From contig JAUMUT010000004.1 in assembly GCA_030530525.1 (NCBI GenBank), forward strand, positions 1 to 64,000: a DNA stretch of 64,000 nt, written 5' to 3'. A program made the position numbers and the translations under genes. The notes beneath the pieces are model-generated. The model saw only the letters and a list, made by a program, of their open reading frames with translations, was not told where the DNA came from and did not search any database. Positions 33,782-39,560 of the stretch are shown here, one piece after another. Every line of letters begins with the position of its first letter. Position 1 is the first letter of the stretch. This DNA comes from Capnocytophaga sp. (GTDB taxonomy: Bacteria > Bacteroidota > Bacteroidia > Flavobacteriales > Flavobacteriaceae).

Positions 33782-34813
33782 TTATTCTTTTCCAATAAAT
33801 TTTTTATCCGTTAAAGTTTTCATAAAAGCAATTAATGCGTCTTTTTCTTCTTCTGAAAGCGGAATTTTATTACCATTATTTTTTAAAATAGGGTCTAAAT
33901 TATTCGCATCTATCACGGAATTGCTAAAATAATCCAGCACATCGCGTAATGTTGCAAACTGACCAAAGCTACCGTAAGGAGCGGTATGCTCAATATTCCT
34001 GAGGGAAGGCACACGGAACTTCATAAAATCTTCTTTTTTGCCTGTAAATCGTCCGCGTCCTGCTTCTTCTACAATATTAGGATTTATCGGGAAGCCAACA
34101 TTTCGGAATGTTTGGTCTGTAAATAAAGCACCGCTGTGGCAAGAAGCACATTTTTGGTTAAAAATATCCCAACCTTTTTGTTCTAATGGCGAAAAAGTAG
34201 TTTCTTTTCTAATGACTTTGTCGTATTTGCTATTGTCAGAAATGAGCGTAAGCATATATTGGGCAATACATTCTAACATTCGGTAAGAATTTATTTTGCC
34301 GTCTTCATAGTTTTTTTGGAAAAGAATTTTATACTCGGGGTCGTCTTTTATTTTGTTGAGAGCGCGCAACACAGAGCTATCCATTTCCTCATCGGTAACA
34401 ATGGGAATGAGCGGTTGTTCTTTGAGATTGGTAACGGCGCCGTCCCACATATAATATTTTAAGAAAGCCATATTTTGGATGGGAGGGGTGTTACGAAGTC
34501 CTTTTCGGTTGTATATCCCGATGGCTTGTGGATTTGTATCCGCATAAGCGTATTGTTGTATGTGGCAAGTGGCACACGAAATGGTGTTATTACCGCTTAA
34601 ACGTGTTTCGTAGAATAATTTTTTGCCGAGTTCAACGCCGTATTTGGAGGGTAAATTTTCTAATGTTTTTTCTGTAAAATCAGGAAAATACGAAGGTTTT
34701 TTTAGTTCTATTTTTGGGTTGTTGAAGGTGAAAATTTCAGATGTGTAATCATTTTCTTTTTTACACGAATAAAAAATAAAATGTATAAAAGCTAAAAAAA
34801 AATATTTTTTCAT
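33782..34813 (-). CDS. MbnH-like dihaem cytochrome c peroxidase (copy 1)
   Basis: Predicted lipoprotein (lipobox FYSC, Cys17) of 343 aa in the MauG/cytochrome-c-peroxidase family. Two c-haem motifs are intact: CATCH (about residues 80-84) and CASCH (about 221-225), with the shared GLRNTPPIQNMAFLKYYMWDG and RVPSLRNIEHTAPYG blocks. It is the last of four genes in the order MbnP2-MbnH2-MbnP1-MbnH1. In methanotroph systems MbnH oxidises a Trp of MbnP to kynurenine using its dihaem centre. A classic H2O2-reducing peroxidase role is the main alternative; the adjacent MbnP favours the former. Confidence 0.82.
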   Translation of the reverse strand: MKKYFFLAFIHFIFYSCKKENDYTSEIFTFNNPKIELKKPSYFPDFTEKTLENLPSKYGVELGKKLFYETRLSGNNTISCATCHIQQYAYADTNPQAIGIYNRKGLRNTPPIQNMAFLKYYMWDGAVTNLKEQPLIPIVTDEEMDSSVLRALNKIKDDPEYKILFQKNYEDGKINSYRMLECIAQYMLTLISDNSKYDKVIRKETTFSPLEQKGWDIFNQKCASCHSGALFTDQTFRNVGFPINPNIVEEAGRGRFTGKKEDFMKFRVPSLRNIEHTAPYGSFGQFATLRDVLDYFSNSVIDANNLDPILKNNGNKIPLSEEEKDALIAFMKTLTDKKFIGKE

Positions 34814-34828
34814 AGATTAGATAAAGTT

Positions 34829-34860
34829 AAAAAAGAGGAAGTTTTTGAAGGCTTCCTCTT
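34829..34860 (-). terminator. terminator-like hairpin between MbnP1 and MbnH1
   Basis: AAGAGGAAG / CTTCCTCTT (9 bp, 10-nt loop) followed by a T run on the minus strand, 15 nt before the MbnH1 ATG. It lies between two genes of one unit and could lower MbnH relative to MbnP. Confidence 0.75.
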
Positions 34861-34885
34861 GATAGTGGTTTAATAAATTTAAGAA

Positions 34886-36001
34886 TTAATTTTGGATAGT
34901 ATTCACAGAAAACATTCCTTTCATATTTTCTACAAATTGATAGATATAACCAGCGTGATGTACATTTGGGGTTGCGTTTCCTGATTGTCCTTCGTTATCA
35001 ATATTAGACGTAAGAGTCAAATTTTCTTTTCCAGATAATACTTTACTTAGATTGGTATTGATATTGATGGTTGGAGCAACTTCGCCAACGTTGATGTTTT
35101 GAGGCAAATCTAACGTAATATCTCTATACGCTTCGGTAGCATCATAATCAGCAAACGTACTACCAATGTGTATGGATAATTCTTTCCAAACGCTTGTATC
35201 ATTATTATCTCTGAAATATCCTTCCATTTTAACAAAGCGATAACCGCTTCCCCATTCCCAGTGCATTCTGTCGTCATTTCCGTCTGCTTGTGCGTAGAAT
35301 TTTGGGTTAGCTTCTTCGTCCAATTTGTTAAGTTCGGGTTTTACACCCAATCCAAATTTTATTTGTTTATATTCTCCTGCGGGAATTTTAGAAAGTACAA
35401 AGTCAAATGTTTTAGGATCTTTTAAATTGACGATATGCGCTCCGTTATCCAAGCTTTCTACGTTGTAGTCAACTTCGGTATCGTCTGTTTTTATCAGGCG
35501 AATATTACTGATAATGTATTTCACTTCTTTAAATCTATGTAATTGATTTTTAGCAGAAACCAATTGCGTAGCCGTTGTAGGTGCATTGTGTGTTTTAGAT
35601 AAAACGAAAGGAGATACTACGCCGTCTTTTTCAAAAACAGCATCAAAGTGTAAAGTAACCGAATTTTCTGTTGGAGTAGATTTTTCCACCACCACAGGGA
35701 GCGTAATAGCTTGCCGAGTAACTCTATCACGAACGATGATATTGGCGTTTCCTTGTTGGAGACCATTTACCGTAGCTTTGGTGTTGCTAACGCTTACCGT
35801 AGCTACTTTTTCGTTGGAAGAAGTAACAGAATAGTCGCCACTTCCTGCTTGGATAGAGAAGGTAGCTGTTGCGGCTTCTTTGATGGTTAATTTTTCAGCA
35901 CTCAGCTTCATTTCTGGGTACTTTACTTCATTGTCTTTATCACACGAGGTGATAGATACAGCTGCCAAGACTGCGAGTAAGGCGCGTTTTAAAAATTTCA
36001 T
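34886..36001 (-). CDS. MbnP-family lipoprotein with extra Ig-like domain (copy 1)
   Basis: Predicted surface or periplasmic lipoprotein (lipobox SITSC, Cys20) of 371 aa. Residues about 30-108 look like a BIG2-type Ig-like domain (KVATVSVSNTKATVNGLQQGNANI). The MbnP domain follows (about 113-365): LHFDAVF, RFKEVKYIISNIRLI, IPAGEYKQIKFGLGV, and the Trp/Tyr motif MHWEWGSGYRFVKMEGYF, ending near NMKGMFSVN. Known MbnP/MopE relatives bind copper through His and an oxidised Trp. The copper role here is inferred from family and from the adjacent MbnH. Confidence 0.8.
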   Translation of the reverse strand: MKFLKRALLAVLAAVSITSCDKDNEVKYPEMKLSAEKLTIKEAATATFSIQAGSGDYSVTSSNEKVATVSVSNTKATVNGLQQGNANIIVRDRVTRQAITLPVVVEKSTPTENSVTLHFDAVFEKDGVVSPFVLSKTHNAPTTATQLVSAKNQLHRFKEVKYIISNIRLIKTDDTEVDYNVESLDNGAHIVNLKDPKTFDFVLSKIPAGEYKQIKFGLGVKPELNKLDEEANPKFYAQADGNDDRMHWEWGSGYRFVKMEGYFRDNNDTSVWKELSIHIGSTFADYDATEAYRDITLDLPQNINVGEVAPTININTNLSKVLSGKENLTLTSNIDNEGQSGNATPNVHHAGYIYQFVENMKGMFSVNTIQN

Positions 36002-36039
36002 TTATTAATAATTTGTTGTTTTTACTAATTTGTGTTTTT

Positions 36040-37083
36040 TTATTTTCTGCCTGTAAATTCCTCATCACTAAGGGTTTTCATAAAGGCGATAAGTGCATTT
36101 TTTTCGTCTTCGGTTAGAGGAATGCCTAATTTTCCTGTTTGTGCGAAATATTTTCTCATTTCGGGGTCAAGGTTAGGATATTCTTGTACGCCATCTGTTA
36201 GAAAATCTAAAAAATCTTTAAGTGTGGCATAGCGTCCATCACGTCCGTATGGAGCTGTGTATTCTACATTTCGCAAACTTGGAACTTTGAATTTTAAAAA
36301 ATCTTCTTGTTTCCCTGTTCCTCTACGGAATCCATCATCTTCGGTTTCAGGATTGTAAGGTATTCCAATATTTCGGAGAGTTTGGTCTGTAAATAAATCT
36401 GTACTATGGCAAGAAGCACATTTTTGTTTAAAAATTTCCAGCCCTTTTTGTTCTTCTGCGGTAAAAGATTCTCCTTCATTTCTGATAACTTTGTCGTATT
36501 TGCTATTTGCAGAAATGAGCGTAAGCATATATTGAGTAATGGCTTTTAACATTCCATCTCGGGAAAAAGTATCTGACCCAAAAGCCTTTTTAAATAGTAT
36601 TTTATATTCTGGGTCGTCTTTTATTTTATTTTCTACATTTTGTAGCGTTTCTCCCATTTCTTCATCGGTAACGATAGGAACAATCGGCTGTCTATGCAAT
36701 TCGGTAATAACGCCGTCCCACATATATTTATCAAGAAATAAAGCATTTTGTATTGGCGGAGTATTGCGCATTCCTATTCTTCCTTCTACTCCTACGGCTC
36801 TTTGTGTTCTTATTTCAGAAGGGTCTGTAAAAGCAAATTTTCGTTGATGGCACTTAGCACAAGAAATAGTATTATCTAAACTTAAACGAGGGTCAGAAAA
36901 AAGTTTTTTTCCTAACTCTACGCCATATTCAGTTGGGTAGTTACTTTCTAAATCGTACTGAATTTTAGGAAAATTAGAAGGAATGTGTAAATGTATTCTT
37001 CTGTTTTCAAAAATATTCTCCGTTTTTTCTTCTCTACACGACCAAATACTTAGTGATATAAGAATTAATAAAAAGTTTTTCAT
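36040..37083 (-). CDS. MbnH-like dihaem cytochrome c peroxidase (copy 2)
   Basis: Paralogue of the gene at 33782-34813, 347 aa from the ATG at 37083 (lipobox IWSC, Cys16). The frame is open to 37131, but that extension lacks a signal and covers part of the hairpin, so it was rejected. Haem motifs CAKCH and CASCH are intact, with GMRNTPPIQNALFLDKYMWDG and KVPSLRNVEYTAPYG. Only 38 nt separate its stop from MbnP1, and no promoter is evident there, so all four genes may form one transcript. Confidence 0.82.
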   Translation of the reverse strand: MKNFLLILISLSIWSCREEKTENIFENRRIHLHIPSNFPKIQYDLESNYPTEYGVELGKKLFSDPRLSLDNTISCAKCHQRKFAFTDPSEIRTQRAVGVEGRIGMRNTPPIQNALFLDKYMWDGVITELHRQPIVPIVTDEEMGETLQNVENKIKDDPEYKILFKKAFGSDTFSRDGMLKAITQYMLTLISANSKYDKVIRNEGESFTAEEQKGLEIFKQKCASCHSTDLFTDQTLRNIGIPYNPETEDDGFRRGTGKQEDFLKFKVPSLRNVEYTAPYGRDGRYATLKDFLDFLTDGVQEYPNLDPEMRKYFAQTGKLGIPLTEDEKNALIAFMKTLSDEEFTGRK

Positions 37084-37107
37084 TAGATTTTGTTGTTGGT
37101 TAGTTTT

Positions 37108-37140
37108 AAGAAAAGAGGTTGTTTGTGGCAACCTCTTTAT
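37108..37140 (-). terminator. terminator-like hairpin between MbnP2 and MbnH2
   Basis: AAAGAGGTTG / CAACCTCTTT (10 bp, 7-nt loop) followed by TTCTT on the minus strand, 25 nt before the MbnH2 ATG. It mirrors the hairpin at the same place in the other MbnP-MbnH pair. Confidence 0.7.
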
Positions 37141-37164
37141 TTTTGTTAGATATGTTAAAAAATA

Positions 37165-38007
37165 TTAATGAAGATGATCCACTGAGAACATTCCACCTTT
37201 TATATTTTCAACAAAATCATCAGCGCCAACTACGCTATGAATATTGTTGTTATCAGATGTTAAAGTGATTTTTTTAGTTCCGCTTAAATATTTATCCAAA
37301 TCTACTTTTATATGAATAGCAGATTTTTTGTCTTTTTCTACTTTTAATACAGCGGTAATAGGAAGCTCTATTTGGATAGCCCCAGAAATAGATTGGCTAT
37401 TTGCAGATGCTACTTTGTCTCCTAAGTGAAGTTTAAAAGCAGAAGCATAATCATCTCCATAAAAACCTTCAAAGCGCAGATGTCTGTATCCGTTTTTCCA
37501 TTTCCAGTTCATACCTTCTTTAGTTGTTTTATCAAAAAAATCTTTTTGGAAATTTTCTCCTTTTTTAAATACTTCTTCTGAAATTCCAATTAAAAATTTA
37601 ACTTTGCTGTATTCTCCTACTGGAATATCAGAAAGGTTAAAGTGATGAGAATGTTCCTCCGCTTGGTTGATGATTTGAGCTCCTTTGTTAGGATTTCCGT
37701 GGTTATATTGTACTTCTTTTCCGTCTTTGGTAACCAAACTAACATCACTAATAATGTATTTTAACACTTCAAATTTATGTTTTTGGTTGTTAGAAGAAAC
37801 TAATTCTGTCCCCACAGATGTTTTATTATCATTTGTGGCTAATTTTATAGAATTTCCAACGGTCTTATAAACATTATCAAAATGTAATTCTACTGTTCCC
37901 TTTTCTTCATTGGGCGTAGTTCCATTGTTGTCGTCATCTTTCTTACAAGATGTAAAAGTTAAAATACCTGCTGTTGCAACAGCAAAAATTGTTTTTAAAT
38001 TTCTCAT
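37165..38007 (-). CDS. MbnP-family lipoprotein (copy 2)
   Basis: Lipoprotein (lipobox FTSC, Cys21) of 280 aa consisting of the MbnP domain alone: LHFDNVYKTVG, KFEVLKYIISDVSLV, EEHSHHFNLSDIPVGEYSKV, and the motif MNWKWKNGYRHLRFEGFY with two Trp. The end is His-rich (NNIHSVVG, GMFSVDHLH). First gene of the MbnP/MbnH block. A TAATTTTG element lies at 38031-38038. By family it should bind copper at a modified Trp and His residues; no metal has been shown for this protein. Confidence 0.8.
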   Translation of the reverse strand: MRNLKTIFAVATAGILTFTSCKKDDDNNGTTPNEEKGTVELHFDNVYKTVGNSIKLATNDNKTSVGTELVSSNNQKHKFEVLKYIISDVSLVTKDGKEVQYNHGNPNKGAQIINQAEEHSHHFNLSDIPVGEYSKVKFLIGISEEVFKKGENFQKDFFDKTTKEGMNWKWKNGYRHLRFEGFYGDDYASAFKLHLGDKVASANSQSISGAIQIELPITAVLKVEKDKKSAIHIKVDLDKYLSGTKKITLTSDNNNIHSVVGADDFVENIKGGMFSVDHLH

Positions 38008-38446: not shown

Positions 38447-38812
38447 TTAAACAATAGGGGGGCGCATCTGTTCTTGTACTATTTTATGTGCAAACAATTG
38501 TTCGTGGTAAAGAGTTTTTGCTGGTTTTGGTTCCAGCTGCATCATTTCAGATACTTCAAAACAAATAGGAGCTACCAAAATAATATCAATATCTTTAAGA
38601 TTGATAATCTTCGTAGCTGCCTCAGAACTGCTTTGTATGTCTTTTTTGAGCTGGCACTTTCCGTGGCAGTTCATTTCTACATTTTTCTTATTAACACAAT
38701 ACAGTTCCTCTATAAAATCTTGGTTTAAGCTAAAATGCACGACAATTAAGGTCTGCTGTATAGAAATCAGCAGAATTAATACCGACATTACTATGCTAAA
38801 AACCTTCTTCAA
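38447..38812 (-). CDS. small secreted or membrane-anchored Cys-motif protein, unknown function
   Basis: Protein of 121 aa with a hydrophobic N-terminus (about 3-26), then a conserved-looking Cys-His motif CVNKKNVEMNCHGKCQLKK (Cys39, Cys49, His50, Cys53), a polar stretch and a Pro-rich end QEQMRPPIV. I recall short flavobacterial proteins with a similar Cys-x-Asn-Lys...Cys-x-Gly-Lys-Cys pattern near metal or haem genes, but no family name. It lies upstream of the MbnP/MbnH block on the same strand, 440 nt away. A metal or haem role is a guess. A -7 element lies at 38858-38865. Confidence 0.6.
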   Translation of the reverse strand: MKKVFSIVMSVLILLISIQQTLIVVHFSLNQDFIEELYCVNKKNVEMNCHGKCQLKKDIQSSSEAATKIINLKDIDIILVAPICFEVSEMMQLEPKPAKTLYHEQLFAHKIVQEQMRPPIV

Positions 38813-38918: not shown

Positions 38919-39560
38919 TTATTTATCTTTTATAATAACAAAACGAGCTTTGTAGCCAGTGAGCAACGCCCAAGTTTCGCTGACTAACTCATTATTTTGC
39001 TCATCATATACCCGAAATTCGGCTGTATTTGGTCCGTACAAACCCTGATTTACCGCTTTTATTTCTATTTTGTTAAAACCTATTTTTAAAGGAATATTTA
39101 ATTTTTTAAAATCGCCAGAAAGATATACATTACTCATTATCAGTTCATCATTAAGAAAAATATCCACCAAATCTCCGTCAATAGCTCCGTAATCTCTACA
39201 AAAAATACCTACCATTTTTCCGTTACTTGAAAAATCTCCGTAATCTTGGTCCCCTTTAAAAGCAGATAAATTTTGCTCTTGTGTATCGCTAAATTTGACG
39301 GCATTTGTAGGTAAAGTGAATTCTTTGGTTACATATTTGGGCGTGTTTTCCCCAGTGAAATCTACTCCTTTTTCAGGAATTTGTAACGGAGTAACCTTCT
39401 TTTTATCAGAATAAATTTTTAACCAAGAATCACTCTTAGGTAGCTGAATATTAGCATCTTCCTTTGGGGCAATATACAATTTATTAGTAGATTTTCCTTC
39501 AGGTTGTGCATATAAAAAATAAGTTAAAAAAAATGTTAAAAAAGCGAATAAAAATTTCAT
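38919..39560 (-). CDS. secreted beta-sandwich protein, unknown function
   Basis: Predicted secreted protein of 213 aa with a signal peptide ending FLYAQ (residue 19). The remainder is rich in beta-strand segments. A C-terminal region (about 115-210; FCRDYGAIDGDLVDIFLND, KIGFNKIEIKAVNQGLYGPNTAEF) looks like a carbohydrate-binding-style or galactose-binding-like sandwich. I do not recognise a named family. It is a single gene divergent from folK. Confidence 0.6.
   Translation of the reverse strand: MKFLFAFLTFFLTYFLYAQPEGKSTNKLYIAPKEDANIQLPKSDSWLKIYSDKKKVTPLQIPEKGVDFTGENTPKYVTKEFTLPTNAVKFSDTQEQNLSAFKGDQDYGDFSSNGKMVGIFCRDYGAIDGDLVDIFLNDELIMSNVYLSGDFKKLNIPLKIGFNKIEIKAVNQGLYGPNTAEFRVYDEQNNELVSETWALLTGYKARFVIIKDK

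Follow-up and report, generated by a model that had tools for sequence, protein, structure and literature searches.

How might a diheme enzyme that appears to lack the defining ligand of its second heme continue to serve a copper-binding partner protein? This question is raised by four genes within a 64,000-nucleotide stretch of Capnocytophaga sp. DNA (assembly GCA_030530525.1, contig JAUMUT010000004.1, positions 1 to 64,000; hereafter the window), which form two tandem pairs coding for an MbnP-type lipoprotein and an MbnH-like enzyme. MauG and MbnH are models for diheme enzymes that store two oxidizing equivalents and remodel a Trp residue at a distance, and the Tyr ligand of the second heme is taken as central to this activity. 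Judging from the alignments and tree described below, the window enzymes are a derived MbnH lineage that has lost this Tyr ligand. We nevertheless consider it probable that the variant enzyme serves the copper-site function, irrespective of how its second heme is ligated. The four genes are co-directional and are transcribed from the minus strand in the order P1, H1, P2, H2 (MbnP-MbnH-MbnP-MbnH):

38007-37165, minus strand: P1, predicted MbnP-type copper-site lipoprotein of 280 amino acids, with MNWKW, the His of LHLG, and NIH (PF20243, motif alignment).
37083-36040, minus strand: H1, MbnH-like diheme lipoprotein of 347 amino acids with two CxxCH motifs (CCP_MauG, TIGR04039, alignment). In its second-heme region, the axial position is a Leu in FLDFL, and PYGRDG stands where PYMHDG is expected.
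36001-34886, minus strand: P2, predicted MbnP-type copper-site lipoprotein of 371 amino acids, with MHWEW, the His of IHIG, and NVH (PF20243, Foldseek). Residues 32-93 are an N-terminal Big_2 domain (Pfam).
34813-33782, minus strand: H2, MbnH-like diheme lipoprotein of 343 amino acids with two CxxCH motifs (CCP_MauG, TIGR04039, Foldseek). In its second-heme region, Phe296 is axial and is preceded by Tyr295, and PYGSFG stands where PYMHDG is expected.

A preliminary description of this locus had reported the same four genes, place, and strand, as well as an M-x-W-x-W motif in both MbnPs, a lipobox and two CxxCH motifs in each enzyme, and an Ig-like domain in only one MbnP (P2 in the present naming). 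All of these features are seen, with the Big_2 domain being real but marginal (24 bits versus a cut-off of 22.8). For H1, the ATG at 37083-37081 yields the 347-residue protein with a clean signal peptide, and the listed TTG at 37131 falls within a hairpin.

Homology to MbnP and MbnH, which had likewise been proposed, is borne out by several searches. Both MbnPs pass the PF20243 cut-off of 27 bits (118 bits for P2 and 111.9 bits for P1), and the CCP_MauG profile scores 172 bits for H1 and 163 bits for H2. The top NCBIfam profile of both enzymes is TIGR04039 (MbnH), ahead of MauG, with 194 bits for H2 and 187 bits for H1. Because E-values range from 1e-32 to 1e-57 and the same P-H order is repeated at 89 paired loci, the observation is not a product of chance. 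Foldseek ranks 7l6g, the MbnP of Methylosinus trichosporium, as the first six matches of a P2 model, and ranks 6e1c (MbnH) first and MauG next for an H2 model; these AlphaFold models were made from six sequences and are too poor for heme geometry, and only the ranking was used. A profile built from 40 MbnPs also retrieves one relevant Protein Data Bank (PDB) entry, 7l6g, whose segment GMAWNWQAGRRF aligns on MxWxW-GYR, with GMAWNWQAG on MxWxW, and whose MVHVGSTG aligns on HxG. Both the Trp and the His that had been put forward as copper-site residues therefore align with a known MbnP.

The window enzymes depart from known MbnHs in the region of the second heme. When H2 is aligned to 3o5c, 1iqc, and 6e1c, Phe296 sits on the axial Met of bacterial cytochrome c peroxidases (bCCPs) and on the Tyr of VIDIYSEGG in 6e1c. 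Likewise, the match to MauG ends with H2 residue 297 on chain residue 295, which places residue 296 on Tyr294 if there is no gap. This axial Tyr is conserved in all MauGs, with Met or His in its place in cytochrome c peroxidases (PMC7567364). Of 101 MbnH-like sequences, 82 have Tyr here, as does 6e1c, and the other 19 have Phe or Leu. All 19 of the latter fall in one clade, as compared to Tyr in 71 of the 71 other MbnH-like enzymes that are paired with an MbnP. The same 19 enzymes carry PYGSFGQ or a similar sequence instead of PYMHDGR, and thus lose His282, whose equivalent is also invariant (71/71) in the others. The inter-heme Trp and the peroxidatic Gln, Pro, and Glu are kept in all clade enzymes of the first alignment. 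The preliminary description had assumed an MbnH like that of methanotrophs; the family and the peroxidatic pocket carry over, but the missing axial Tyr does not permit a simple transfer.

In a tree rooted on bCCPs and computed with the trait columns left out, the 19 enzymes form a single clade with a Shimodaira-Hasegawa approximate likelihood ratio test (SH-aLRT) value of 99. This clade is nested within the Tyr-type MbnHs, and its sister is the L010/L014/L045 group. The tree was made by a quick method with SH-aLRT as the only support measure, and 6e1c is a long branch whose exact place is unsure. Close pairs within the clade have ratios of nonsynonymous to synonymous substitution rates of about 0.06-0.11, indicative of purifying selection, and so these genes are not decaying.

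One observation that counts against an outright loss of the ligand is that Tyr occurs one residue before the axial position in 17 of the 19 clade enzymes, at a site occupied by His or Phe in other MbnHs (FY or HY becomes YF or YL). The ligand may therefore have slipped, in which case Tyr295 would coordinate the second heme of an ordinary MbnH with a one-residue change of register, as a local backbone shift is conceivable. This would be a sub-case of the explanation that we prefer and is compatible with the copper role. However, we regard it as a somewhat doubtful possibility, given that the invariant His282 is lost at the same time and that the spacing from PYxxxG is unchanged. Moreover, neither position is Tyr in H1 (Phe-Leu) or in the second enzyme of genome G013 (Phe-Phe), and both of these enzymes nonetheless retain their partners and motifs.

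Among the 18 MbnPs partnered with Tyr-free enzymes, the Met of the motif is present in 17, and both Trp residues, the copper-site His, and the second His are present in all 18; the motif reads WEW in 16/18, followed by GYR in 18/18. In contrast, six MbnPs from the genus of the window that have no adjacent MbnH (L012, L018, L019, L020, L036, and L034, with the contig of L019 stopping where an MbnH could lie) retain the copper-site His in only 1/6 cases and the second His in 0/6. The lost copper-site His is replaced by Gln in four of these and by Leu in L034. The MbnP tree mirrors that of the enzymes, in that the sister group is the same and the partners of the 19 form one group, which also takes in the MbnH-less MbnPs of the genus. 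The distribution of the His residues, read from the sequences, is as expected if the copper site is of consequence only alongside the enzyme. A point on the other side is that five of the six MbnH-less proteins form one clade, such that the His loss represents one or two events. Because the His is kept in partners and lost in MbnH-less MbnPs, the Tyr-free enzymes would still serve the copper site, and a Tyr-ligand-free enzyme thus appears to sustain it.

Other MbnPs in these alignments have additional peculiarities. Several MbnH-less MbnP genes adjoin succinate-dehydrogenase-like genes (tested in L035), and the L034 MbnP gene is flanked on each side by a gene pair that resembles SusC/SusD in size and spacing. 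A separate MbnP subgroup (L024, L027, L028, L030, L031, and L038) has MxWxW replaced by xxW...GGGYHYM or a close variant of it, and Tyr-type MbnH enzymes are encoded alongside.

Comparison with characterized systems helps to define what has changed. The window genes resemble the MbnP/MbnH system of M. trichosporium (7l6g, 6e1c) in the gene pair, the MbnP profile and fold, the MxWxW motif and His, and a diheme enzyme with two CxxCH motifs and a peroxidatic pocket. They differ in that there are two tandem pairs, one MbnP carries a Big_2 domain, and the second heme lacks both the Tyr ligand and the neighboring His. In addition, the genome of the window has no match to PF05114 (MbnB family), in agreement with the earlier statement that methanobactin genes are absent. 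In the 2021 MbnP work, a relative with these copper-site residues reportedly makes kynurenine, and the neighborhoods of MbnP/MbnH are said to have been surveyed.

As in the window, the MopE/SACCP and CorA/CorB systems of methanotrophs combine a diheme partner with a copper protein that is secreted or exposed at the surface, and they share a kynurenine copper site as a concept. However, the copper ligands of CorA and MopE include two His residues, with Kyn62-x-His64 in CorA (PMC3423442, PMC3912023), and the window MbnPs read Trp-x-Trp there rather than a Trp(Kyn)-x-His motif. Furthermore, the 40-MbnP profile finds no MopE or CorA match in the PDB. Thus, the parallel with MopE and CorA drawn in the preliminary description is not supported as drawn. 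MauG of Paracoccus (3l4m, with 3orv as the Y294H variant) belongs to the same diheme family, likewise has the Gln/Pro/Glu pocket, and oxidizes Trp on a partner protein, as the window enzymes would, but it has Tyr294 where the window enzymes have Phe or Leu, and its substrate is methylamine dehydrogenase.

These comparisons also bear on the nature of the product. The second heme is changed while the peroxidatic heme and the substrate Trp are kept, and the partner motif has shifted to WEW...GYR in most cases. Both features could be explained if the enzymes make a different Trp product, such as hydroxytryptophan or a cross-link, since the second heme would not support a bis-Fe(IV) state. We judge this to be quite unlikely, as the copper site is built from residues identical to those of the relative that is reported to make kynurenine.

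Genes near the MbnP-MbnH pairs of related species provide a link to copper. In all 13 single-pair loci of the clade, the MbnP gene follows, on the same strand, genes for a lipoprotein of ~307 amino acids and a TonB receptor of ~660 amino acids. One member of the latter group was tested and matches OprC (6fok, E 1e-7) as well as TIGR01778 (TonB-copper, 80 bits, below the cut-off). The receptors are similar to the OprC/NosA TonB-dependent copper receptors, whose copper site in OprC is CxxxM (PMC8610252), and this site is kept as ACTDKMD in 13/13. The same receptor and pair are found in named records of Flavobacterium pectinovorum, F. anhuiense, and Chryseobacterium rhizosphaerae. Because the pair stands directly behind an OprC-like CxxxM receptor in 13/13 single-pair relatives, there is good support for a generic reading of these sequences as encoding a copper protein at the surface whose Trp is modified, with kynurenine as the predicted modification.

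The surface location was also part of the preliminary description, and it is strengthened by P1 itself. Following the lipobox, P1 reads C-K-K-D-D (CKKDDD), which matches the C-X-K-(D/E)2 surface-export signal shown in C. canimorsus (PMC5080379). Near-matches are present in P2 (CDKDNE) and H2 (CKKEND).

Several observations weigh against assigning the window genes to a copper-handling MbnP/MbnH system. The TIGR04039 scores of H1 and H2 are about half of the cut-off of 362.85, which is passed in 0/80 relative genomes, and the TIGR04052 (MbnP_like_WxW) score is weak, at 54 bits versus a cut-off of 140. The structure models are poor, with predicted local distance difference test (pLDDT) values of 49 and 54, and the genome of the window has no OprC-like receptor, unlike the single-pair relatives. 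The same contig carries a nos cluster at a distance of 37 kb, and nosZDL is present in one clade of Capnocytophaga (PMC13228040). In favor of the copper role, MbnP and NosZ co-occur within the genus (8/9 versus 1/11, Fisher p = 0.0009), as seen also in the Tyr-type pair beside a nos cluster in G009, but the statistic includes no phylogenetic correction, and a test outside the genus showed no general association of NosZ with MbnP.

Finally, single-sequence phmmer searches score bCCPs above 6e1c, and therefore the family placement rests jointly on profile, fold, tree, and neighborhood. This ranking fits an explanation wherein H1 and H2 resemble bCCPs and have no role beyond H2O2 detoxification, with MbnP being a copper lipoprotein of the ordinary kind that carries an unmodified Trp. 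The peroxidatic pocket is intact, and in Leptospira the absence of the MauG Tyr has been taken as a sign of a cytochrome c peroxidase (PMC7567364). However, the second-heme ligand of such peroxidases is Met or His, as opposed to the Phe or Leu seen here, and the clade nests inside the MbnHs and apart from bCCPs. Clade enzymes also adjoin an MbnP in 18/18 cases where the contig allows, and the first Trp and the His are invariant in these partners, with the His decaying when the enzyme is absent. For this reason, we consider a purely detoxifying role to be unlikely. The preliminary description had raised the prospect that the enzymes lie nearer to other peroxidases, and on this point phmmer ranks bCCPs above 6e1c, but the tree and the best NCBIfam profile place the enzymes with the MbnHs.

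We therefore favor a mechanism in which the two tandem MbnP-MbnH pairs would capture copper at the outer membrane. The N-terminal, peroxide-reacting heme retains its Gln/Pro/Glu pocket and the inter-heme Trp, whereas the C-terminal heme lacks the Tyr ligand (replaced by Leu or Phe) and the second invariant His. This second heme, in place of the His/Tyr heme of MauG and MbnH, may be five-coordinate, water-ligated, or ligated by the slipped Tyr. By oxidizing the first Trp of the MxWxW motif, the enzyme would generate kynurenine or a similar product and thereby complete a Cu(I) site. Loaded MbnP could then pass copper toward cuproenzymes, for instance the nitrous oxide reductase whose gene lies at a distance of 37 kb, with cbb3 oxidase as a further candidate. 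More tentatively, and short of what we would call probable, the MbnH lineage may oxidize Trp at long range although the distal side of its second heme has no ligand from the protein, in which case the His/Tyr heme, and possibly the bis-Fe(IV) state, would be dispensable and H1 would represent the most reduced form.

The existence of a natural Tyr-free clade that is under purifying selection and whose partners have intact copper sites makes the assumption about the Tyr ligand directly testable. In addition, MbnP/MbnH is tied to copper import in Flavobacteriia, outside of methanotrophs, by two neighbors, namely the OprC-like receptor and the small Cys protein described below. MbnP/MbnH pairs far outside methanobactin producers are already on record (PMC3621798), but the Tyr-free lineage is not described in the searchable literature. 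The same is true of its coupling to intact partners, the OprC-like neighbor, and the hairpins described below, although the primary MbnH papers fell outside this search and priority is uncertain.

The small Cys protein is a recurrent neighbor of these pairs and is encoded in the window as follows:

38447-38812, minus strand: small membrane-anchored Cys protein of 121 amino acids, with C-x-N-x7-C-x-G-K-C ... PP.

Its gene is upstream of MbnP in most Flavobacteriia loci and also precedes an OprC-like gene that stands alone. Pfam and NCBIfam searches gave nothing convincing, with two relatives very weakly related to HYC_CC_PP. The protein and its relatives in alignment A3 are candidate copper-handling proteins that fit no curated family. 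In L117, L119, L120, and L122, its place upstream of the pair is taken by genes that code for SBBP/delta-60 repeat beta-propeller lipoproteins, as tests in L117 and L120 showed, or that are comparable in size. Elsewhere, a Tyr-type MbnP-MbnH pair (L107; G009:C23) lies directly beside a nos cluster, whose NosZ, NosL, NosD, NosF, and NosY genes were assigned by size and sequence appearance, and a gene of TonB-receptor size. Within the window, a P-type ATPase of the heavy-metal group is encoded at 44.4-47.6 kb with an FNR-type regulator beside it.

Both P-H junctions in the window carry a terminator-like hairpin, and the H1-P2 junction carries none:

37112-37138, minus strand: hairpin AAAGAGGTTG-CCACAAA-CAACCTCTTT with a T-rich tail, between P1 and H1.
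34833-34860, minus strand: hairpin AAGAGGAAG-CCTTCAAAAA-CTTCCTCTT with a T run, between P2 and H2.

Strong hairpins are present at the P-H junction in 30 of 89 pairs, versus 3.1 in shuffled sequences and 4/88 and 4/86 at two control positions. This enrichment fits an excess of substrate over enzyme, which the hairpin plausibly provides. An Rfam search of 33-40 kb gave no match. At 38919-39560, the window encodes a 213-amino acid protein with a signal-peptide-like start, for which Pfam and NCBIfam gave no match and the related loci that were fetched contain no homologue.

The tandem duplication is a minor, genus-level feature, and together with the Big_2 domain it represents a small variation. 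Tandem pairs in other flavobacteria, for which the preliminary description had proposed a survey, do exist, but in few species. Two MbnPs are likewise encoded in genomes G013 and G001, but all of these group apart from P1 of the window, and a shared tandem ancestry was therefore rejected. In G013, the first 100 codons of the two MbnP genes are 90 percent identical over 300 nucleotides (L032 5461-5760 and 8538-8837) and the rest differs; the tandem copies of G001 (L051/L033) are similarly alike in the first 100 codons and differ thereafter. Gene conversion is the probable cause in both genomes, judging from these patterns. For P2, residues 2-107, including the Ig-like domain, match a 619-amino acid protein of the same genus (G008:C34:15220-15540, 38 percent), which suggests that its N-terminal part was acquired by domain borrowing.

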